Below, piece after piece: positions 16,713 to 44,729 of a DNA stretch of 64,000 nt. Numbering within the stretch: the stretch's first letter is position 1; each line of letters begins with the position of its first letter. Below the pieces are notes generated by a model, which ran no database searches, had not been told where the DNA came from, and worked only from the letters and a program-made list of their open reading frames with translations. The position numbers were made by a program, and so were the translations under genes. The stretch comes from Polychytrium aggregatum (lineage: Eukaryota; Chytridiomycota; Chytridiomycetes; Polychytriales): NCBI RefSeq assembly GCF_025602895.1, contig NW_026516212.1, positions 372,001 through 436,000 on the forward strand, in the 5' to 3' direction.

Positions 16713-16878
16713 TGGCAGTAGGTAGAGCTGGTGCTGGCGATGGATGTGGTGGATGCGATGTGGACCAGACACTATGAAAAAATTTCATGTTAATAAAATG
16801 AACGAGAACGAAAAAACGCGCTCTCGGAGCCACCTCGGTCGGCGAGAAGAGCAGTCTCTGGCGAGAAGCCTCTCGCCG

Positions 16879-16880
<2 letters not shown>

Positions 16881-16930
<50 letters not shown>
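16881..16930. repeat. (AC)n dinucleotide microsatellite
   Basis: About 25 uninterrupted AC units between gene A and the 3' end of the Fanzor-like gene. Confidence 0.98.
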
Positions 16931-16932
<2 letters not shown>

Positions 16933-17086
16933 TGCACACACTTTGCACAAGGGAGTCAAACACCTCCCATCACCATCCCAAGAGGGATGGCAACCCCGAA
17001 GTGGACTGCCCAGAATATGGGCGACCCGGCATCCACTGTCGAAATGAACAAGATACTTACAGTCAATCCAGAAAGAAACGGGACAG

Positions 17087-17998
17087 TCACTTTCTGGCTT
17101 CTGAAACCCGCTGACTGACTTGTAGGCCCAGCGGGCAGGCCATGGCATTGCACTCCTGTCTTCGTTGGCAATCTATTTGTTTTGTTGGTTTGGGAAGCAC
17201 AGTCTTGAATACACCCGGTCGATCTCCTGTGGCGATGATCGACTGGCATACCGAGATCATGTTCCTGGCTGCATTGATGTCTCGATCCCACAGCGTATGG
17301 CAGCTTGCACAGCTCCGGACAAAATGTGGCTTCTCGATATCAAGATACTCGGGTGACTCGAGTCGTTTGGCTTCCCGACAATGTGAGCACACCTGGGATG
17401 TGTTGAACTCGTTCACCGAGCACACACGGATCTTGGAGACGGATCGGTCTGGTGGTCGTCTCTGGTGGTGTATGAACTGCTCAAAGTACTTGGCGAACCT
17501 GAGTCTCCTGGGACTGGATGCGTATCCCCTCCCTTGTTTCCACGAGGCATTTCCAAAGGCAATCACCACTTCGGTCTCCCTTGGTGCCTGGTCGATGACT
17601 CGCTTGCAGATCTCGTGGACGGTGCGCTTGCTGTGGAGATCGAGTCGCTTGAATCGCCGTCGCCGGGTCAGGCTGAAGTACAGCTGTTTGTCCAGCATGT
17701 CTCCATTGAACACATGGCGAATGTATCGCAAGAAGGAAGCCAACCCGGTGATCGTGGGACTTGGTGTGGTGCTCATCCATTGCTGCAGACCAAGGATCTT
17801 GTGGGTGCTCTGGATCCACTTGGTCGCCTGGGGGGTGTCTTTCGCTTGCGGGGAGCCATCTGGCGAGAAAATAGCGACGATGGCTGGTTCTGCCCTTGGG
17901 GAAGAGAGAATCTCCTCAAAACCAGCGCATTTTGGGCTGGCAGAGATGCTGCGCAGTGGCGTCCTTGATTCAGATCCAGAAACGCATCGCTCGCTCAA
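17087..17998 (-). CDS. Fanzor/TnpB-like RNA-guided nuclease, C-terminal half (probably a degraded or partial copy)
   Basis: A 303-codon open frame without ATG at its 5' end, preceded in the same frame by a TGA at 17999. In order it shows: a Lys/Arg-rich helix region (LYFSLTRRRRFKRLDLHSKR); the Fanzor strand VVIAFGNASWKQGRGY; VNEFNTSQVCSHC, where the Glu sits in the position used by the relocated RuvC-II glutamate of Fanzors and CSHC starts the zinc ribbon; then CASCHTLWDRDINAARNM, which is the second CxxC and the RuvC-III Asp. The RuvC-I Asp is not found in its usual DPG setting. The only candidate is SPDGS near residue 47. Fanzors are eukaryotic relatives of TnpB carried by transposons and guided by an RNA encoded at the element end. 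No recognition-lobe N-terminus is visible, so this looks like a truncated copy, or one with its 5' exons unresolved. Confidence 0.75.
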   Translation of the reverse strand: MSERCVSGSESRTPLRSISASPKCAGFEEILSSPRAEPAIVAIFSPDGSPQAKDTPQATKWIQSTHKILGLQQWMSTTPSPTITGLASFLRYIRHVFNGDMLDKQLYFSLTRRRRFKRLDLHSKRTVHEICKRVIDQAPRETEVVIAFGNASWKQGRGYASSPRRLRFAKYFEQFIHHQRRPPDRSVSKIRVCSVNEFNTSQVCSHCREAKRLESPEYLDIEKPHFVRSCASCHTLWDRDINAARNMISVCQSIIATGDRPGVFKTVLPKPTKQIDCQRRQECNAMACPLGLQVSQRVSEARK

Positions 17999-18535
17999 TC
18001 AGTCGTGGGAAGACATCTTGTCAAGGTGAGTCTTGCCTGATAGCCAAACGATCATGTCATCTCGCTGACACACAGCCACGCTTGACTCGGTTTCCAACCA
18101 GAGAGATTCAGACGGTGGTGGTTCTTGTCCGCAATCGGAGTGGAGCTTCCAACAATGATACAATTGGTCATTCCTCCACACCAATCGCCCACCTTCACGC
18201 CGACACAATCGGCTCAAGGTGATACCAAATGCCGTCAACCGACCATGGCCAGATTCCAACTTTTGCTGCGCCACATACAGCGTGTATTCATATTCGAGAT
18301 GAGCAACCGCGAGGGGCCGGAAAAAATTGATAGTGAGTAAGCAGGCGCCCAACGCCAAGAAGCCGGATGTGGCTGTGACGGGGCTGGCACGCATGGATAC
18401 ACAAACCGCGCCACAGGCGCAGCAAGCCAGCCCCATGGAAATAGCGGTCATGGATCGCTCGCAACAAGTCATGTGAAGGTGTCCCAGTCTGCTGTATTCA
18501 AAGGCGAGCGAGGCCATCAAGCATAACCAATCCGA
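17999..18535 (-). other. Open frame upstream of and in frame with the Fanzor-like gene
   Basis: About 180 codons ending in a single TGA directly before the Fanzor-like frame. It contains a hydrophobic Cys/Ala stretch (ISMGLACCACGAVCVSMRAS) and a more ordinary segment (NFFRPLAVAHLEYEYTLYVA). Neither half resembles a Fanzor N-terminus. It may be a separate degraded gene, or the 5' part of the locus with a premature stop. Start codon not settled. Confidence 0.25.
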
Positions 18536-18576
18536 GGCCATCAAGTGCAATCGATTCAAGGACGAGCGAGGTCATC
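18497..18576. repeat. 23-bp imperfect direct repeat at the Sel1 stop codon
   Basis: Positions 18497-18519 and 18554-18576 match at 20 of 23 bases. The second copy overlaps the last codons and stop of the Sel1 gene. Possible remnant of a local duplication or an insertion junction. Confidence 0.6.
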
Positions 18577-19968
18577 AAACGTAGCAACGCAGCTCGTTTC
18601 GCGTCTCAGGCGATCGAGGGCTTCCTGCGCCTGTGGGTGTCCACCGGCCCAGGCTTTAGCAAACCAATCGATGGCCTTTGCCCAGTCCCGCGGGGCACCA
18701 TGGCCGTGATAAAACATGGACCCGAGCATGTACTGAGCCTCCACGTGTCCCAGCTCGGCGGCTTGGGCAAGCCAGTTGACGGCAAGGATTAGATCGGTTG
18801 CTGTCCTGCGGCCATTGAGGTGGTGCTTTCCAAGACGGTACTGGGCATCGGGGTGACCGTGCTCTGCCGCCTTGGTCAGCCAGTGTGCGGCCGCTGATCG
18901 ATCTTTGTGAACCCCGATGCCGTCATTGTAGCAGAGACTGAGAGTGTACTGAGCAGCTGCATGGCCCTGTTGGGCGGCTTTGGCGAGCCACTCGGCTGCC
19001 TTGGTATCTTCCCGGGGCACTCCATGTCCGTTGGCGTAACAAATGCCAACTTCAAACTGACTCTCGGCAACCTGCTGCGTGCCCGGCCTGTAATGCCTCC
19101 AGAAGTTTGCTGCGTTGATGCCCCACGGAAACCGATCATCGTCCATGGTGTAGAGCAGCACAAGGGCCTCTTGAGCCTCCTTGCAGCCATCGAAGGCTGC
19201 CTTTCTGTAGAGCCCCTCGGCTCGGAACGTGTCTTGTGCGGTGCTGACCCCGAGCTCGCAGCATTGAGCGAGATAGAAAAGCGCCCCTGGATGTCCCGCG
19301 ACCGCTGAATCTTTCAGACAGCAAAAAATTTCGCCGGATCTTGTGCTTAAGACGGGACTGCGATGGTCCACTGAGAGGTCTTGAAGAAGAGACGCGTTGG
19401 ACATGCTCGGGTCGATGATGTGCTGCTCTTTGAGTGTTGCGGAGGCATAGGAAGAGTTGGTTGTATACTCGATTTCCAGATCCCAATCGACCTCGGTCAT
19501 TTCGGCACATTTCTCAAGTCCCCCAGCTTCGGCCATGAGGACCCGGGCGAGAAAGTACTGGGCAACAGCGTCGCCTCGGTCTGCCTGCGCCACAAGCCAG
19601 GAGCAGTCATCGGCATCCTGTTTCTCGTAGTGTCTTGCCAACATGACCATTTCGCTGAAAGAAACCAGTTCTGGCAGACAATCATTCCGGGAGCACAGCT
19701 TGGCGACTTGACACCAGCCTCGGAAACGATTCAGCCGGGACATCAAGATGGGCCGGGCACGCTTGCAGACCAGGAACAGGACCTCGAGCTCATCAAGTGT
19801 CAACGAGAGGGAGAAGCAGTCGTTGGAGAAGATTATAGTAAGGATGTCCGGATCGTGACGGCCGAGCACGATCGCGAAAAGCTCAACAGCCGAGGAAGTA
19901 GACCCGGTCCTGGCCAGTTTGTGCGTATTCGCGTCGGCTTCGTCGTCATTAATCAGCCGCTTGCACAT
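18556..19968 (-). CDS. Sel1-repeat (TPR-like) protein
   Basis: Single-exon gene of 470 aa starting at an ATG (MCKRLINDDEADANTHK). The N-terminal 110 residues (PDILTIIFSNDCFSLSLTLDELEV) have no recognised domain, though they include a helix pattern reminiscent of BTB-type tails. From about residue 125 and especially 225-460 there are repeated Sel1 units of about 36 residues with the A-x-x-(W/Y)-(L/Y)-x-(K/Q)-A-A-x-x-G-H-x-x-A-Q-Y-x-L-G signature, for example AAEWLAKAAQQGHAAAQYTL and AVNWLAQAAELGHVEAQYML. Sel1 solenoids are protein-binding scaffolds in ER quality control, chitin synthase activation (Chs4/Skt5) and signalling. No prenylation CaaX motif is seen at the end (DDLARP), so a Chs4 identity is not supported. 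Likely cytosolic. Confidence 0.9.
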   Translation of the reverse strand: MCKRLINDDEADANTHKLARTGSTSSAVELFAIVLGRHDPDILTIIFSNDCFSLSLTLDELEVLFLVCKRARPILMSRLNRFRGWCQVAKLCSRNDCLPELVSFSEMVMLARHYEKQDADDCSWLVAQADRGDAVAQYFLARVLMAEAGGLEKCAEMTEVDWDLEIEYTTNSSYASATLKEQHIIDPSMSNASLLQDLSVDHRSPVLSTRSGEIFCCLKDSAVAGHPGALFYLAQCCELGVSTAQDTFRAEGLYRKAAFDGCKEAQEALVLLYTMDDDRFPWGINAANFWRHYRPGTQQVAESQFEVGICYANGHGVPREDTKAAEWLAKAAQQGHAAAQYTLSLCYNDGIGVHKDRSAAAHWLTKAAEHGHPDAQYRLGKHHLNGRRTATDLILAVNWLAQAAELGHVEAQYMLGSMFYHGHGAPRDWAKAIDWFAKAWAGGHPQAQEALDRLRRETSCVATFDDLARP

Positions 19969-36026: not shown

Positions 36027-38552
36027 GAGTCCGGGCGGGGAGCTTCACGAAGGGGAGATTCGACAGGACCTGCTGTCAACACGCAAAGACAAGTCTCACC
36101 ATCGTCGGTTGGCAGGGGCGTCAGACCGCCATCGGATCGACTGTGCACCCGCTGAGGCAGCCCGGTTCATGTGGTGGCGCGAATGCGATCGTGGGATATC
36201 AGAGTCAGATCGAGGCCATCAGAATTCAGTGGCGAGTGCGCCGCGATAGTTATGCGGTGAGCATGGTATAAAATGCGCAACTTGGCTTGGATGAGATCGG
36301 TGTTGGCGAGACTGGCGAGGATACCATGATCGTAATCATGGATGTTTGTGTTGATCCAACCGCGGCGGAGCTTACCCGGATGGCCGACGGCGCTGGACTG
36401 GGCTGTTGGCTTCTGCTGCAGAAGGGATCGAGTGCTCATGAGACTCTCGAACCAACGACGACTGTCTGCAGGCAACTGTCATGAACCATGACGGCCGATC
36501 CAGGTGCGACGCGACAGCGCAGCAGACAAACGAACCTCTCGAACCGCGAATCCCGATTCATGACCACTGGGAGGAATCCCGGAGACACGGGGCACTCTTG
36601 ATGGGTGGGGTACTCGGAAGGAGTTCAGTCGGGCGGACCAGTGGATTGAAGAAAAGGACAGGCAGCTCGCGCTCGGCCTGGATCTGAATCCTCAGGGCCG
36701 TGGCGCGCGGTTCGTCCAGGGTTCGGCAAAGGTGTTCTTGGTCGGATTGGCCAGGAGCCCGCTTTCTCCGACGCCGACGATCCGACTGACACAGCACATG
36801 CCGGCATATCCCGTGCGGACGGGTGGTGTGCTCATGAGAGCCCGGGAGAACGGCAGCTCTGCGCTGGCATTGACGCTCATGTGCAACAGGGTGGCCCTGT
36901 CTGCGCATCCATATTCTTTGCAGGCCGGTCTCTGCCTCTGGCCATGACGACGCTGCCGCGATGCACTCTGGGTCTGTCCAACCTACGCTACTCCTGCTCT
37001 GCATCTTGTGACCCTGTCCAACGCAGGACAGAGCGCACGCGAGGACGGCATGCAGCACTTTGCAAGCGCTTGCAGGCATCGTCTCGCTGAATTGGGGGCT
37101 GGTCTGGTCGGCTGACAGCGAAGCGCAAGGATGGGTCGCATATGGGGGGAAGCCAAAGGAGCGTCCCAGTGAGTCGATGCCAACGCATGGCCCCACGTGG
37201 ATGGATGACCGGAGGCTGGGCTATCAGCGACAAGGGGGCACGCCTGGTCACCAGACGCCGCCCTTCGAGAGTTGGAGCAAAGTCGGGTGGGGTTGTTCCC
37301 GTGGAGTGGGGGGGGGTGGGATGCTGGGCCTCGGATGCCCAGGCGCCTCGGTCAAGTTTGCAGCGAGGCAATCCGCGCAAATCTGAGGATGGGAAGGCCG
37401 AGGGCGAGTATCCGACTTGTGCTGGACGAAGCCACCACGGCAGATACTGACTTGGACGAAGCCAGCGCCGTCGACACGGGGACGTGGCCGCAATCTTGCT
37501 TGGCGTCGAAAGAGCGCACAACCAAGGCCTGTGTGCCATGGAACAGCGACACGATGAAAAAATAGGACGTGACCCCTGTGCAGTGGCTGTGTTCGGCTCG
37601 GGACCTGGTCAGCAGGACAATTTCGACACAGAATGAGTCACGTGTGTGCCGACAGTCTGGTGCAGCCTCGTCTGAACGATGCCATTTTGGGACTGCTCGC
37701 TAGCCAATCAACAGCGTTGCTTCCCACACGTGCTCTGGCCCGATTTGGCATTCGCTTGCCGTCCCGCTCCGTCCCGCTCCGTTCAGGGACCCCTCCGCCC
37801 CGGTTTCTCCCGGCCCCGAACCTCTCATATCCTCATTCTCCCTCACCATGACCCGTTCTGAGAACTGCCTTTCGGACACCCCAGTTCCGACCGCCGTTGG
37901 GCGGCACCGTGAACTCCTGGGGCAATCCTCGGCCGTTCTAACTAGTCCAGGATTAGGTCAAACCCGCGGTGGTCACTGCTCCACCAGCCAGTTTAACCTC
38001 AGAGTCGCAAACAGAATGCGGTATGATATGCCGTGTTCAGTAAAAACGCAAGTGATAACAAACCCGAAATGATAATAATCAAGATAATGTCCCATGGGGG
38101 CGAGGATATCTGGAGGGAATGAGCGATGCGGTTAGTTGAAGCGTCGCCTTCGAGCTCTCTCAGATGATGCTCAATCGTCATGAAGGAGCTTACTTGGATT
38201 TGGATGGCTTCCTGCATTCGAGATATATTCAAGATAGTGAAAGAGGAAGCGTTAAAGTTAATAACATTAGAGGCATATTCATGATGCGGCTCATCCTCAA
38301 TATGCATGCGTTTAACGGCACCTATGTCATCGATCGGCTCACGGGCCCGTCGAGGAAGTTAGGATAGAGAGGGCCTGAGGGGAGTATTGACTTGAGCCTG
38401 ACGACGGAAGCGGGCAGGAAGCGGTGGTCGGGGGGATATTTATATTCCAAACCTTCCGACTTGACCTGTCATTACACTGATATGGTCACTATGGGTCAAG
38501 TTCGGACAAACTCCCTTCGTCATCAAGCAGCCTCAAGCACTTTTTGGCCCAA
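36027..38552. other. Mixed region without a confirmed gene
   Basis: On the minus strand a short ATG frame (36475 to about 36377, MPADSRRWFESLMSTRSLLQ) ends at a GTAAGC donor and could be the first exon of an unresolved gene or an upstream exon of the FSIP1-like gene. A second codon-like stretch at 36886-36692 (ELPFSRALMSTPPVRTGYAG) has no recognised family. From about 38000 rightwards the DNA turns AT-rich, which marks the edge of the transposon block. Confidence 0.35.
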
Positions 38553-41500
38553 CTACCTGCGACATTTGCATCGACTTGTCAAATCGGAGGATCTTGCTCG
38601 ATAATATAAAAGCCACCTGGAATAGTTGGTATGAGTATCAGCCTGACTTTGCCTCTCCATCCACTCTCCAATTGCAGCAAAGCTGTACCCACCGCCTTCC
38701 ATCTCGAAGTATCCGACAGTAGAAACGATGGCATCGGCTGGAACAAAGATATGATTCGTTGACTCCATGCTGTCGAGGTGGAAGGTAGCGCACTCGTTGC
38801 ATGGGCGGTATCCTGAACTGTCATCTCCATATCTGATGTTGATCTTTGGAATCACACAGTATGCCCAGTTTGTTGTTTCTCCATCAAAGGAGTGGCTGAT
38901 GAAATATTGGACTTGATAGAAGCGGACAGAAGAATATGGGTGATTGCTTGCTGATGCATCGGGCATATTGGTCCAAACCTGTAGATTCAGAATGCATTAG
39001 CTCATATGAGGCTTCGCTATCGCGCGCTGCCGAATGCCTTACCTTCACAACAGAGTTCATCCGATGATGTGCCGTGCTCATCCGATGTGATTGAGATATG
39101 ACATGTAGTTCCCCCGCGTCCATCTTGGTGTGTTTGGAGCAAGTGTCCGAATTCTGATCCCAAAGTGAATGGACATATTGCAAGGCTTCACGATAGCCGT
39201 ATGAGGAATTGGCAGAAATCGTCCTGGCATAAGCGCTCTTTAGCTTCGCGACTTGTTCAGAGGGTAGCTTCAGCTTTTGCTGCTGGCCAGACAAGGTTCC
39301 GCGGCTATCTTGATTCGAGGTCCGTCCATTGTTTGCAAAGGAAGATGGCCATATCCCGGGATCTCCGCCCAACCTGGATGTTCCTCTCAAAGTCAAGTTC
39401 GGAGCAATGCTTGGACCGCTCAAAGAGCTTTGGAGGACGAGCCGATTGGCCATATTGTCCACTGGATGGACCTTTGATCGCCCGATGAGCTTCAGCCAAC
39501 CACAGGTTCTTTCCATTTCAAACTGCCACTGATATACTAGGGGTCCAAACAATCGGATGCACCTGGGTAAGTGTTGGAGCTGATGCACGTAGGTTTTCAT
39601 CAAACGAAGTCCAGACAGGTCTGGAGCTCTGTCTGGAGGAGGTTCAAGTGACTCTGGGAGATTTGCGATTGATCTGGTGAATACATTCCGAGTATACGTG
39701 GTTAGATATTGAGAATCAATGAGCTGCCCAACATCCTCAAGTGAAGGGACTGCTGTCTCGTGCTACTTGCTCTGTGTAGTACTCCTGGAACCTCTGAAGA
39801 TTTGTTTCGATCTGATTGCATTGAGCAACATTCAACTGGGGAAGCAGCATCAATCGAAGGGCATAGACAAAGCGCCTCCATCCCAATCTAGGCACAATAG
39901 CATCACTGTTAGGATCAATTCGAATCAAGTATCTCATCGACCGTAGGACGGGCCCCGGTTCGAGCAGGGTACAATATCAAGAGCTTACAAGTGCTCTGGT
40001 GGAAAGCCTGCCGCACTGAGCAGAGGGAGGGAGTACATGATAATCCAATTCTTCCATTCTTCGGTTTTGAAGGTTTTGTATGAGACAGGGTCCCGACAAG
40101 AGGCGCCAAAGCCTGTTGGAATCTGAATTCTGCCTTCGCTGATCCACCTTCCGATCTTTTTCAGGCACTTGGACGTGATCTTTTGGTCCAAACTTGAGGA
40201 TGAGGGAGCCTTCCGCGTTCCATTCCAAATCTCCATCATGAGTGGACCGATGTTCGAGATCACATGCATCAGATCGAGAGGAAGACAGAAGCTGAGCTCG
40301 ATGGACTCAAGTTGAGTTACACCTGGTCGCCCCACGATCCCTGATCAACATAGTTGATGTTAACATCGGAGTCGAAAACATCACCTGACTGGTCTCATTA
40401 ACGTACCGTTTCGGGGCATGCCGTCTTGATCGATGGCCTCCCATATTCTGTTCAGACTCGCTTCGGTGCGGTATGGACTGGGAGTGTCACGTTCATAGAA
40501 GCACATGGCACCCCCTGCCCTCGTGGCCGTTATTTCGCAGAGTCGACAGCCCTTCGTAGCGGTGTGCCTAGAAAATTTACCGAATTTGTTGGATCCAGGC
40601 ATGTCACTCTGACAGTACAGCAAGTGACCTCGGAGAGTGAAAGAACGTTCCACGCCATTTTGGTCGACCCTTATCGCCTCAACACCTGGGAGAGTGGCAT
40701 TGCTTCGTCAGACAGAGTACTCTCGCGAGGATTATGTGGAGTGACCAAGTGATCCACACCAGAGGAGGCGTACGCACCGGTCTCAAGTCTCTTCATATCT
40801 TCGAAAAACGGCTTCAAAAATGTATCAAAGTCTCGAGGCGATCGTGGACCTGGCGTAAGCAAGACCGTAATGAGATTTTCCTTTTTGTAGCGCAGAGCAG
40901 GTGGAAGATTGAAGTTGATCAAGATGAAGCCCCACGATTGATGGCTTTGCCTACACCAGATACAAAGGTCAGCTGTGGTTATAATCTGATTTTGAAACAG
41001 AGAGCGGGCGTACCTCTGATTGATATTGAAGCCATCAAAATGCAGCCCGAGAGCAACGTCGGTGGGCTGCTGGAACATTGAGCGACTACGAAGGTGCTGG
41101 TAATATTCGGCATCGAAAATGTCGCTCATGACGCCTGAAGATTCAGATTTGGTGAGTTCAGAGCACCATATAGCAATATAGTATTGGGAAAGAATACGGG
41201 TGGAAAGTACCTGGTTCGCTCGCTCTGTTTGCTCTGTACATCATCAACTCTGCCATAGTTGGATTTCGGTAGAGTGTCTGAAGTATCTGAACAAAATCGA
41301 AATACTTGTAGGTCTGAATCGGCCTCAGTTGTGGTTGAATGCCGCCATTCAGAAGTTTTTCGTTCACCGTCGCATAAGCATCCTCTCCACAAAACGTGCA
41401 TATTCGACTCTGGTTATCATTGATGTCGAATCCCATGCAGCTGTTTGGGCAGCAGGGAAGCCTCTGAAGATACTCGTTCCACTCGCAACAAATGATCTTT

Positions 41501-42760
41501 TGGATCTTGTACAGACTGGGTGCAGCTGGTAATGACAATCCTTGGAATTTGTTGCAATGATTAAGGACAGATTTGATGGCTTTGTCGGTAACATTGCACT
41601 CGGTCAACACCTTGACCAGCTGCGAATAGAAGGGCGGGATATCTGGGGGAAAGCCGCGGGTGAATACATCAATTCGGATGCTACATCGGATTGCTATCTG
41701 TCCTTTGAATTTGACTCACCATCTGATATGCGGGGCTCTTCGTCACCAGTTTCTTCATCATCTTCATTCATTTCAAGCAGTCGAAAGTGGCCGAGGAAGC
41801 TATCCGGATACTGTCCTGGAAGGTGAACCGTGGCATTTATATGAGTCAACCGGACTCTGAAGCAAGACCAGGAAGATTCGACGATACGATCAGGCCGGGT
41901 GACGTTGATATCTCACCCGAAATGTCATCGAATTCTCTCGGTGAGCTTGAAGTGGTGTCTTCTGAGTCTATCGAAGAGTCTTCAGAGTCTTCGTAGTACA
42001 TGGACGCTTCTTCAGAGTCCCGCGATGCCCACATGCTTGGCGACCACGAAGGGCAGCGTTCAAATTGAGCTGGAGCAGGGCCTTCGTTGTCTTGGGTGCA
42101 TTGCTGAATAGATGCTCCTGTTTGGATATCCATGCTCTCGTGCTCAAATGCGCGGGGTGAGCCTTTGGGCCAGGCCAAGGATGAAGAAACAAAGTCGGAC
42201 AAATCGAGAGTGTATTGGTCATTTCGTAGTGAGCTCTGGCAGCGTCCAAGCACAGATCACTGATTATTGCTCAAGACTGAAACCGTGACGCACACAAAAA
42301 TTTAGCGAGAATGTGATATCAGGTGCTCAGTCTTACCCAATGAAGGTCGCTGCGATGTTATCCCATGTGGTCGCAGTTCATCTACCACCAACACTGGGGG
42401 ATGAAATGTCGGCGAAGTTCGCAAATTGGGGTTATTTTCGCATATGCTTGTAATAGGACGGTGAGGGAACGAAGAAAGATGGCCAGCTGTGTTTTCTTGA
42501 GGATCTTTGAGCGAGTACATGTGAACAGGGGGGACTCCAGGTGGAAAGCCATAGCGATAGAAGTGGTCGTAGTAGGTCGTTCTGGAGACAATCCTGAAGC
42601 CTTGCGAATCGGTGCTACACTTGCGACAACGACAGATGGATCTGTTCTTGGGAAGCCCATCGTGAGCCCTATTTATCGAGGATGGTACCCTGGTCGATGA
42701 TATTGGATATGGAGTATGCCTTGGGTGATCGTGCCCAGATGGTTGAGCGGCTGAACTCAT
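38553..42760 (-). mobile_element. tnp2-type (CACTA/Plavaka-like) DNA transposon, multi-exon transposase
   Basis: At least eight exons on the minus strand, read by successive open blocks. The N-terminus (from 42760, MSSAAQPSG) has a metal-binding-like CRCRKCSTDSQGF motif. An acidic Ser/Glu/Asp stretch follows. Next come CCPNSCMGFDIND...CTFCGED and PTMAELMMYRANRA. The tnp2 core is next: MSDIFDAEYYQHL, then DVALGLHFDGFNINQRY, then SWGFILINFNLPPALRYKKE and PGPRSPRDFDTFLKPFFEDM. Later blocks are KGCRLCEITATRAG, CLPLDLMHVISNIGPLMMEI, then IRLFGPLVYQWQFEMERTCG and a C-terminal domain to 38553. This order is that of fungal tnp2/Plavaka transposases (cut-and-paste, DDE/RNase H fold). No frame-breaking stop was found in the conserved blocks. 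Terminal inverted repeats and target duplication were not located. The block is AT-richer than its flanks, suggesting a different origin. Confidence 0.8.
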
Positions 42761-44729
42761 GATTAGAGTCGGATGAGAAGGTCGAGGGGAGAAAGGATCA
42801 AGAGGAGATTGACGAAGCAACTGGGGGCGGAAATGCCCGGTTTTTGTCCAAGTCCGAAGGCTCTGATGACCCATGAACACAGATGAGTCAGGAAAGCAGC
42901 CGGGGGTCATGGACAGTGAACGAGTCGCGGAAGACAGTGAAAAGCCGGGATGACTCGGATGCCATGTCACGTGAACGGACGCATTCCATTGGCCGAGGGC
43001 TCCACGGGATGTGGCAGTGCGGGTTCGGGGACACCCAGGGAGCCAGCAACCTGGACGAACAAGGAGAAATGCGGGTGACCTGAGCCAGTCGCGGTCGCTT
43101 CAGTGGCCAGACGCGACCCCCAAAGCGAAACAAAACGCGAGAAGACGTGTTTTTCCTTGTTCGGCTGAGTCCGGTGGGGGATTTGCGAGGGAAGCATTGG
43201 CTAACGCGTAATTTACACGTCAGCTTTTTTTTCATAGTGCGAGGGGCGGCCACGCGAGCACGACGGCGACAAAGCCGAGACACCGACAGAGCAGGCGCGT
43301 GAACCGGGGCAGCAAGCAAGGACAGCGCGTGGGAAGCGCCAAAGACGACGCAAACGGCGCTCGGACAGGATAAGTCCGGGGGGAGGACAAAGCGGCAGCG
43401 GATTGCGAATGCGAATGTGAATGCGAATGTGAATGTGGATGGCGGTGTGGATTGCAATGTGGATTGCAATGTGGACTTGGATGCGGATTGCGAGCGCCCT
43501 TGGATTGCAAATCGCAGCAGCAAGTCGGGTGGCGCTCGCCGAGATGGCGACAGCGCGGCGCCTTGTGTGTGGCTGTGTGATAATGTGCGCGCACCGCCAC
43601 AAGGCCCGTGCGCGCACAGACGGCAGACGACTCCGTGTGACGCTGCTGCGCACAGTCACCGCTGTGTCGTGACGCTGTGTCTCTGTTGGCGGGGTGTGTT
43701 TGTGTGCGTGGTGCGCCAGTGTGCTCTTGCTGCTGCGGTTGCGACTGTGCCTGTGGCGGCGGACGGTGCCTCTGTGTGGGTGTACATCCCCTCGGCATGT
43801 CGCACCACCCACCGAGTGTGTCATCAGCAGCACCACCCACAGCGACAGCAGCACCACCCACAGCGACAGCAGCACCGCCAACACCCACAGCGACAACAGC
43901 GACAACAGCGGCAACACGCGCGCCCGGACACCCGCCCGCGGCCGCTCTGTGTTTGGCGTCACTTGACTTTTTTCTTCCCTCGCCTTCAGCGCCGCCCTTC
44001 ACCCTGCGCTTCGCTTCTTTGCCCCCACGCCGTCTGGCCTTCGTCCTGATTCACCCTCTCCATCGGCGGGTCTTTCGGCTTCTGAATCACCCTCCCCCGG
44101 CGCCGTTCTTCGTCTTCTGATCCGCTCTATCGCCGGCCTTCGCCGATCGCTGCTCCCCATCGCCGCTCACCTTTGGGCTCTGTTCTCCATTGCTCCCCTC
44201 CAGGCCTGCCTGCCTCTGCAACGCCCCCGCCAGCACACACGTCTCTGTTGTGGCTGCATCAAATCCTATTTTACACCTCTCGGTAGGTCCCTTCCGTCTA
44301 TTTATAGGCTCTTCTTCAGGACTCATACACACTCTTTTTCTTGGCCACCTGCCTGCTCGTCAGCTGCTGGCTCACGCATCGCCTTTGCTGGCCTCGAGTC
44401 AATATCATCAGCCCGTTTCCCCCCTTCGCCACTCGCCACTCATCCACCCGCTGTCCTGCTGGTGCGTCGGCTCTCCCCGCTGCACCTCTGGCCCCGTTGA
44501 CTCACGGGTCCATCCCTCTCTCTCTCGAACATTCGCTCTCTTCCTCTCTGTCGCAGGCTCCCTCGTTCTCCGCAGCCGAGGTATTTGTCGCTCTCTCATT
44601 GTCCAGACCCCACCCGGCTTGCCATCGTCGTCCGCCCAGCACGATGCATCTTTCGTGCGTCCCTGGCCCCCGTCGCCCGGTGACACTCCTCCTCCTTCGC
44701 ATCGTTAAATCTCTTCCTTCTCCCAGCCC
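42761..44729. other. Region between the transposon and the areA-like gene
   Basis: GC-rich and repetitive. GCGAATGTGAAT / GTGGATTGCAAT hexamer repeats occur at about 43405-43495, and 18-bp CAGCACCACCCACAGCGA repeats at about 43827-43905. The right part (44100-44729) is pyrimidine-rich and is probably the promoter and leader of the downstream gene. A TATTTATAG element lies near 44298. No gene supported. Confidence 0.5.
43827..43905. repeat. 18-bp tandem repeat
   Basis: About four diverging copies of the unit CAGCACCACCCACAGCGA. Confidence 0.8.

Follow-up and report, generated by a model that had tools for sequence, protein, structure and literature searches.

A 1,566-bp non-autonomous element with CACTA-type ends, on the minus strand at 16770-18335 of a 64,000-nucleotide stretch of a Polychytrium aggregatum contig (the window, to which all positions below refer), probably has a layered origin. 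In the reading preferred here, a Tc1/mariner-type transposon carrying a Fanzor gene was captured in a CACTA-type element, and the resulting chimera spread, underwent an internal deletion and exchanged sequence with its relatives. The element was delimited by blastn of 50 loci and comparison of their flanks; the copy in the window is a short, non-coding derivative.

The Fanzor part lies within a 303-aa frame that is read by ORF translation on the minus strand, from 17998 to 17087, with a TTG start (a plus-strand reading of 17087-17998 is ruled out by stops). A preliminary description, made from the letters alone, had claimed FGNASW, VNEFNTSQVCSHC, a second CxxC and WDRDINAARNM for a Fanzor C-terminal fragment without RuvC-I; all are found, in the minus-strand translation. 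On its sequence, the frame is the C-terminal third of a Fanzor1-type protein, the remnant itself (RuvC-II region, TNB zinc ribbon and RuvC-III) occupying 17087-17829, with the relocated Glu putatively assigned from motif position. That it is such a fragment is borne out by Pfam as well as by the motifs: PF07282 (Cas12f1-like_TNB) matches residues 189-247 at E 1.1e-10 (42 bits; cut-off 26.3), which puts the zinc ribbon and the RuvC-III Asp at 17258-17434, and the Pfam scan of the frame gave nothing beyond the TNB zinc ribbon. In the TnpB-type profile search that had been suggested as a check, PF07282 passes its cut-off, while NCBIfam guided_TnpB matches below its own (E 2.9e-6 and 26.8 bits, cut-off 100); the TNB ribbon region is also where the NCBIfam TnpB and Cas12f models match, with scores under their cut-offs. 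A PDB profile search returned nothing at E 1, single-sequence PDB searches gave weak matches to Cas12m and TnpB-like L79 (E 0.025-0.053), and a scan of viral_contigs with the full-length alignment yielded no confirmed relative. The RuvC-I Asp and the recognition part are absent from the window copy, having been removed by internal deletion, and the first ~54 residues of the frame are read from 5′ sequence outside the Fanzor frame. Residues RQ, present in L034 and L032, are missing from the window copy, and each of the 49 other loci compared has at least one in-frame indel relative to it.

Relatives are numerous in the assembly searched (64.7 Mb, 418 contigs). Of 1,771 first-look candidates for the window frame, 130 were scored as matches, well beyond chance given that even the weakest has E 9.2e-135. 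At the DNA level, 40 long copies of the region (87-100% alike, the window counted) and two 60-base matches were scored. By match start the 130 rows comprise 74 of short type, 35 with a later start and frames of at least 700 aa, and 21 that are neither, the short-type call having been verified for L001-L030. Allowing up to two mismatches, 154 occurrences of a 34-base right-arm stretch were counted, and none of its reversed control. Of the loci compared, L001-L030 are the 30 best protein matches, the window included, and L031-L050 were chosen for long frames, so that counts of intactness among them are not genome rates. A repeat-control genome search listed only diverged or short matches and missed the query itself, on which account absence in searches of that type is weak evidence.

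One internal deletion, of ~1.8 kb at 8-bp microhomology, is present in all 30 best loci when these are set by blastn against the 20 long-frame loci. In the window its junction is at 17830-17837, where the matches to full-length copies overlap (element positions 499-506), and the window element is the two ends of full-length copies joined at this microhomology. The deleted segment holds REC and the RuvC-I motif. Full-length copies, whose existence elsewhere in the genome had been raised as a possibility, were found, IDPG being kept in 20 of 20 long-frame loci; in four of them (L041, L045, L046 and L050) one of the compared motifs differs. L034 conforms to the Fanzor1 signature, given in the part of PMC3627910 drawn on here as D-X(125,275)-[TS][TS]-XX-[C4 zinc finger]-X(5,50)-RD, with D557, T755 S756, C759 C762 C785 C788 and R794 D795 (spacers 197 and 5). 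The native Fanzor start codon (MAPRKRK...) survives in the window at 17857-17859, its product after the deletion being a 28-aa peptide short of the Fanzor C-terminus. Translation from the native ATG stops short of that C-terminus in 30 of 30 short loci, and short copies are accordingly not expected to give a working nuclease. At most, the window copy would supply element ends, and perhaps a candidate guide RNA, to full-length Fanzors in trans. A different, larger deletion was met in two of five further copies read (L068 and L071). As a separate matter, an insert of 366-368 bp, bounded by TGTCA...TGACA, is situated close to the start of Fanzor in full-length L031, L032, L034, L035, L044, L045 and L047.

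CACTATC and CATAGTG are the first and last bases of the element. Its left arm, 18019-18335, starts CACTATCAATTTTTTCC and is not common to the composite Tc1/mariner copies L043 and L048. Next to it, at 17970-18017, are the last 15 codons and stop (DVFPRLIERAMRFWI, followed by the stop) of a DDE_3 (Tc1/mariner) transposase, recognized by tblastn of the L067 transposase, to whose counterpart the first 14 residues are identical. Beyond the Fanzor remnant an old Tc1/mariner right terminal inverted repeat (CAGTCAATCCAGAAAGAAACGGGACAGTCAC on the plus strand) lies at 17060-17090, with TA at 17058-17059, and this old right end recurs with unrelated flanks in L043, L048 and L037. The right arm, 16770-17057, ends TTTTTTCATAGTG and has two conserved stretches, 16945-17040 and 16770-16882, with a variable GT repeat between them (the GT/CA microsatellite at 16880-16938). 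A 21-nt deletion in the second stretch is found in the window and two others among 32 copies. On the minus strand, GTAAGT at the old mariner end (17053-17060) and TTTTTTCATAG at the terminus (16770-16782) are splice-site-like. An upstream 186-aa frame (17999-18559) was rejected as a gene: the majority of copies have TAG in frame, and G at that base is peculiar to the window (45 loci: 42 T, 2 gaps). A Sel1-repeat protein gene at 18556-19968 (PF08238, E 1.2e-37) directly adjoins the element.

With nine loci left out before the count, an exact 3-bp target duplication is seen at 16 of the 30 non-redundant loci with both flanks, against a mean of 2.4 and a maximum of 8 for shuffled pairings; 4-bp flank matches occur at one of the 30. 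The remaining 14, window copy included, are without an exact 3-bp duplication, that of the window being the imperfect ACT/TCT. Insertion sites favor T at -3 (23 of 34) and C or A at -2 (29 of 34). The family thus shows both the CACTA termini and the 3-bp duplication that define CACTA (CMC) elements, the duplication being inexact in the window copy. Transposase_21 was not matched in the two element frames scanned, and a genome search with PF02992 placed none inside the element. The Tc1/mariner set of TA duplication, inverted repeats and DDE_3 transposase is incomplete in the window copy, which is left with the right repeat, the TA and 15 transposase codons.

The complete Tc1/mariner set exists elsewhere in the genome. 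In L043 and L048 a transposase directly precedes Fanzor in units of 3,655 and 3,786 bp, flanked by TA and having related terminal inverted repeats (23 and 22 of 30), so that TA duplication, inverted repeats and DDE_3 transposase are found together. The L048 transposase is an open 324-aa frame (DDE_3, E 2.9e-24); in L043 no transposase frame stays open over 230 aa. Counted manually, the final two acidic residues of the transposase are 34 apart, a spacing that is the Tc1 convention. By blastn, L043 and L048 have in common with the window element positions 318-370 and ~499-1282 only, the former being the transposase tail and the latter the Fanzor 3′ part up to the old right repeat and TA. Because just these parts are shared, the window family is interpreted as a captured Fanzor with foreign outer arms. 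L067, a related Fanzor that is 41% identical over 762 aa, also lies directly downstream of a DDE_3 transposase, and at least eight of the 130 Fanzor rows have a DDE_3 match just upstream by coordinates and strand, in a transposase search in which 150 of 415 candidates were scored; L043 and L048 are the two of these that were read. L037 ends at the mariner repeat with unrelated flank, yet clusters with the CACTA-type copies in the tree.

Some neighboring observations may be recorded here. The right sides of short copies L015, L016, L020 and L027 stop at the old mariner repeat with unrelated flanks, and their left ends are irregular or truncated. Several other PF07282 groups can be told apart by score in the genome, e.g. 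C124:405504-405698, C279:35225-35422 and L067 (150 of 663 candidates scored); among these, one group shows great uniformity and frames of ~809 aa, and the copy read from it (L067) is the one adjoining a DDE_3 transposase. Reverse transcriptase (PF00078) clusters are present on C115, C201, C366 and C75 among others (150 of 1,671 candidates scored), the copies being mostly of equal score, often with an open 1,284-aa frame, and many within tens of kb of each other.

A candidate trans helper is a CMC/EnSpm (CACTA) transposase element (PF02992, E 3.1e-11) on the minus strand at 37550-43239, 19 kb from the Fanzor element, with ends CACGATGAAAAAAT and CACTATGAAAAAAAA and the 3-bp duplication CGA. Fifteen other near-full copies are 98-100% alike, and from this near-identity it was probably recently active. 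The right ends of the CMC and Fanzor elements have 13 terminal bases in common, and their left ends share little beyond CACTAT. Judged from these ends, the CMC element may help the Fanzor element in trans.

The preferred history would begin with the insertion of a Tc1/mariner-type element with DDE_3 and Fanzor1 genes, as in L043 and L048, at a TA in a CACTA-type element; the old right end and TA within the right arm point to this. Its left part would have been lost down to the last 15 transposase codons, enclosing Fanzor by CACTA-type arms (the resulting anatomy is observed, the order of events reconstructed). The chimera would then have spread with 3-bp duplications, its mobilization in trans most likely being due to the resident CMC transposase, after which the 1.8-kb deletion at the 8-bp microhomology would have removed REC and RuvC-I and severed the native start from the Fanzor frame. 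The short form, to which the window copy belongs, would finally have spread by transposition along with gap repair or gene conversion as the presumed cause of its transfer between copies. Against this history, no CACTA-type element without the Fanzor insertion was found among the copies read; the extra right-arm copies read were five, each with the old mariner end. The scant likeness of the left end to that of the CMC element and the 14 loci without an exact 3-bp duplication also weigh against it.

Why such ghost elements persist is a further matter, and retention for a right-end guide RNA is a possibility to be held tentatively. The guide would be encoded either at the old mariner end, with the scaffold in the Fanzor 3′ end plus inverted repeat, or in the CACTA-type right arm. 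The region 16.9-17.2 kb, earlier put forward as the element end that may encode a guide, is not one element end: it combines the old Tc1/mariner repeat (17060-17090) with a CACTA-type arm of separate origin (16770-17057). In folding, both right-arm stretches of the window surpass shuffled sequence (z -2.6 and -3.1, though the second is -1.8 in L034), and they are almost invariant in 29 and 32 copies. However, these sets were picked by motif from 35 (6 and 3 failed), which favors likeness, and low arm diversity may reflect just a young family. For the old end, sequence common to mariner-type and CACTA-type copies stops at the old right repeat, and a scaffold common to both element types must therefore lie there. 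A hairpin forms in that repeat when sequences are folded singly, and RNAalifold has one pair that is changed on both sides (3 of 41 distinct rows, in one lineage), but otherwise RNAalifold of the old end yields short helices only, and Rfam gave nothing near gathering score, with one chance-level match at 12.8 bits versus 65. According to the literature drawn on, published ghosts carry at their right end a region that resembles the omegaRNA region found in full loci (PMC10432273), and for published guide scaffolds of Fanzor1 the prediction is that they take in the inverted repeat (PMC10711439). By logic, the old mariner end is the favored candidate for the guide site. Three loci were left out of a right-arm alignment, and four each from the right-arm GT-repeat and old-end RNAalifold sets. 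Two other candidates fared less well: a plain CACTA-type Fanzor with guide RNA in the last 110 nt was weakened by the discovery of mariner-type copies, and the conserved 5′ stretch, which is partly transposase tail, was rejected as a structured RNA (z -0.04 for 150 nt folded).

Exchange between copies is apparent where they share an insertion site. Nine pairs among the 50 loci have a common left flank, and seven also a common right flank, the right flank of the other two being outside that test. Interiors differ, patchily, in eight of the nine (0.6-5.2%) and not in one, and the eight pairs with flanks aligned throughout have flank substitutions of no more than 0.2%. In L014/L017, 16 of 17 differences are within one 200-bp stretch. 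Across eight site-matched pairs the differences are skewed to synonymous (pN/pS 0.29), which suggests that they were imported and did not arise in place. L008 (short) and L039 (full) represent one insertion with the same altered ends (flanks 97.8-99.1% matching, the left one diverging past 450 bp); to the left of the junction the two are almost alike and to the right of it they diverge, as expected were the short interior copied in. A PHI-type test gave none of 1000 permutations as low (three loci were left out of this test and the private-variant analysis). In the 3′ tree, short and full labels are mixed, with nine changes, at least four of them forced; since the labels are still more clustered than shuffled ones (mean 15.9, 0 of 500 as low), the short form may have had a single origin followed by exchange. 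The mosaic interiors at shared insertion sites point to gene conversion; the exchange is established statistically, and its cause would be gap repair or gene conversion. It has to be allowed for when dating copies or inferring selection.

Assembly or polishing error as the source of the mosaics is unlikely. Many similar copies are the circumstance in which it could arise, but copies several percent apart should have their reads mapped separately, and the synonymous skew of shared-site differences (pN/pS 0.29) also speaks against it, as does a clean control, a paired 10-kb stretch whose 9,977 aligned columns include 9 substitutions. Eight CMC copies, too, fall into two exact sequence types, which differ patchily from each other as well (L051 and L052 were unaligned in the comparison that served as this control).

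Still less probable, as a cause of the exchange, is a drive based on a locked guide. With the mariner-type right end now facing fixed CACTA sequence, such a guide would be drawn from inside the CACTA-type element; Fanzor would cut sibling CACTA elements without Fanzor, and repair would copy in the Fanzor-bearing or short interior. If true, this would be an intra-family homing drive, accounting for both the mosaic interiors and the single breakpoint on many backgrounds. Past the old end, family sequence (AAGTAT or close variant) follows in 42 of the 49 loci, among 50, in which that end was found, and unrelated sequence in seven. Against it, the stretch past the old end varies in length and letters among copies, and no Fanzor-free target element was found.

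It is very doubtful that the short frame is a selected functional mini-protein of RuvC-II, zinc ribbon and RuvC-III, e.g. a dominant regulator of full-length Fanzor. Mean pairwise dN/dS (Nei-Gojobori, 215 codons) is 0.23 among the 20 full and 0.30 among the 30 short loci, and the frame is without stop or frameshift over the 215 codons in 29 of 30 short copies, though in a set of best protein matches. However, native ATG translation misses the Fanzor part in all 30, and exchange with full-length copies accounts for the low ratio just as well, as in the eight site-matched pairs (pN/pS 0.29); because copies exchange sequence, short-copy dN/dS proves no product. The signal is weaker in private variants of short copies, with a pN/pS of 0.73 versus 0.31 for shared ones, with the same trend in full copies (0.52 and 0.22) and with private sites few. 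Diversity among short copies, six loci being left out, is 0.013 at element positions 151-318, 0.137 at 1-150, 0.056 in the interior, and 0.042 and 0.033 in two right-arm parts; given the value at 1-150, the arms are not uniformly more alike than the interior. Hardly tenable is the isolated, decaying gene fragment of the preliminary description: the window copy is indeed a fragment, with no RuvC-I, an unusable native start codon and an imperfect target duplication, but the recurrence of one breakpoint in all 30 best loci, most of which have both element ends, contradicts isolation and, together with the 74 of 130 scored rows that are short-type by match start (verified for L001-L030 only), marks a defined multi-copy internal-deletion derivative.

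What is new here is a Fanzor1 gene that, as its sequence surroundings suggest, moved from a Tc1/mariner composite into CACTA-type ends. Fanzor hosts named in the parts of PMC3627910 and PMC10711439 drawn on include Mariner, Sola, IS4, Helitron, MuDr, hAT, Crypton and others; EnSpm and CACTA are absent from the main texts of both, and PMC12633428, in the portion concerned, has Fanzor and EnSpm as separate repeats. No literature pairing Fanzor with CACTA was found, and another 2023 Fanzor survey may report CACTA-type hosts. Why Fanzor genes occur in many unrelated transposon superfamilies is a question raised in PMC10711439 (in the part drawn on), and transfer between two of them seems readable in one genome, as composite source, chimeric intermediate and shortened derivative.

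Of known systems, SPu-1 / SpuFz1 of Spizellomyces punctatus and its ghosts, as portrayed in the relevant parts of PMC3627910 and PMC10432273, are similar in their Fanzor1-type C-terminus and multiple copies, many without a working gene. SPu-1, however, has a length of ~2.1 kb, repeats of 33 bp and TA duplications that are putative, whereas here the ends are CACTA-type with 3-bp duplications, and the window derivative retains the 3′ third of the gene. PGv-1 and PUl-1, as described in PMC3627910, have the same plan as L043 and L048, transposase plus Fanzor between TA-flanked inverted repeats; the window family lacks that transposase and left end and has gained outer CACTA-type arms. The likeness to CMC/EnSpm (CACTA) elements lies in the CACTA ends, the 3-bp duplications and the 13 terminal bases common with the resident Transposase_21 element, but the window family encodes no CMC transposase and its cargo is a captured Fanzor. 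Ds- or dSpm-like internal-deletion derivatives keep their ends, have the coding part deleted at microhomology and are multi-copy, in all of which the short form resembles them; it differs in having one breakpoint on mixed backgrounds, consistent with spread by conversion.
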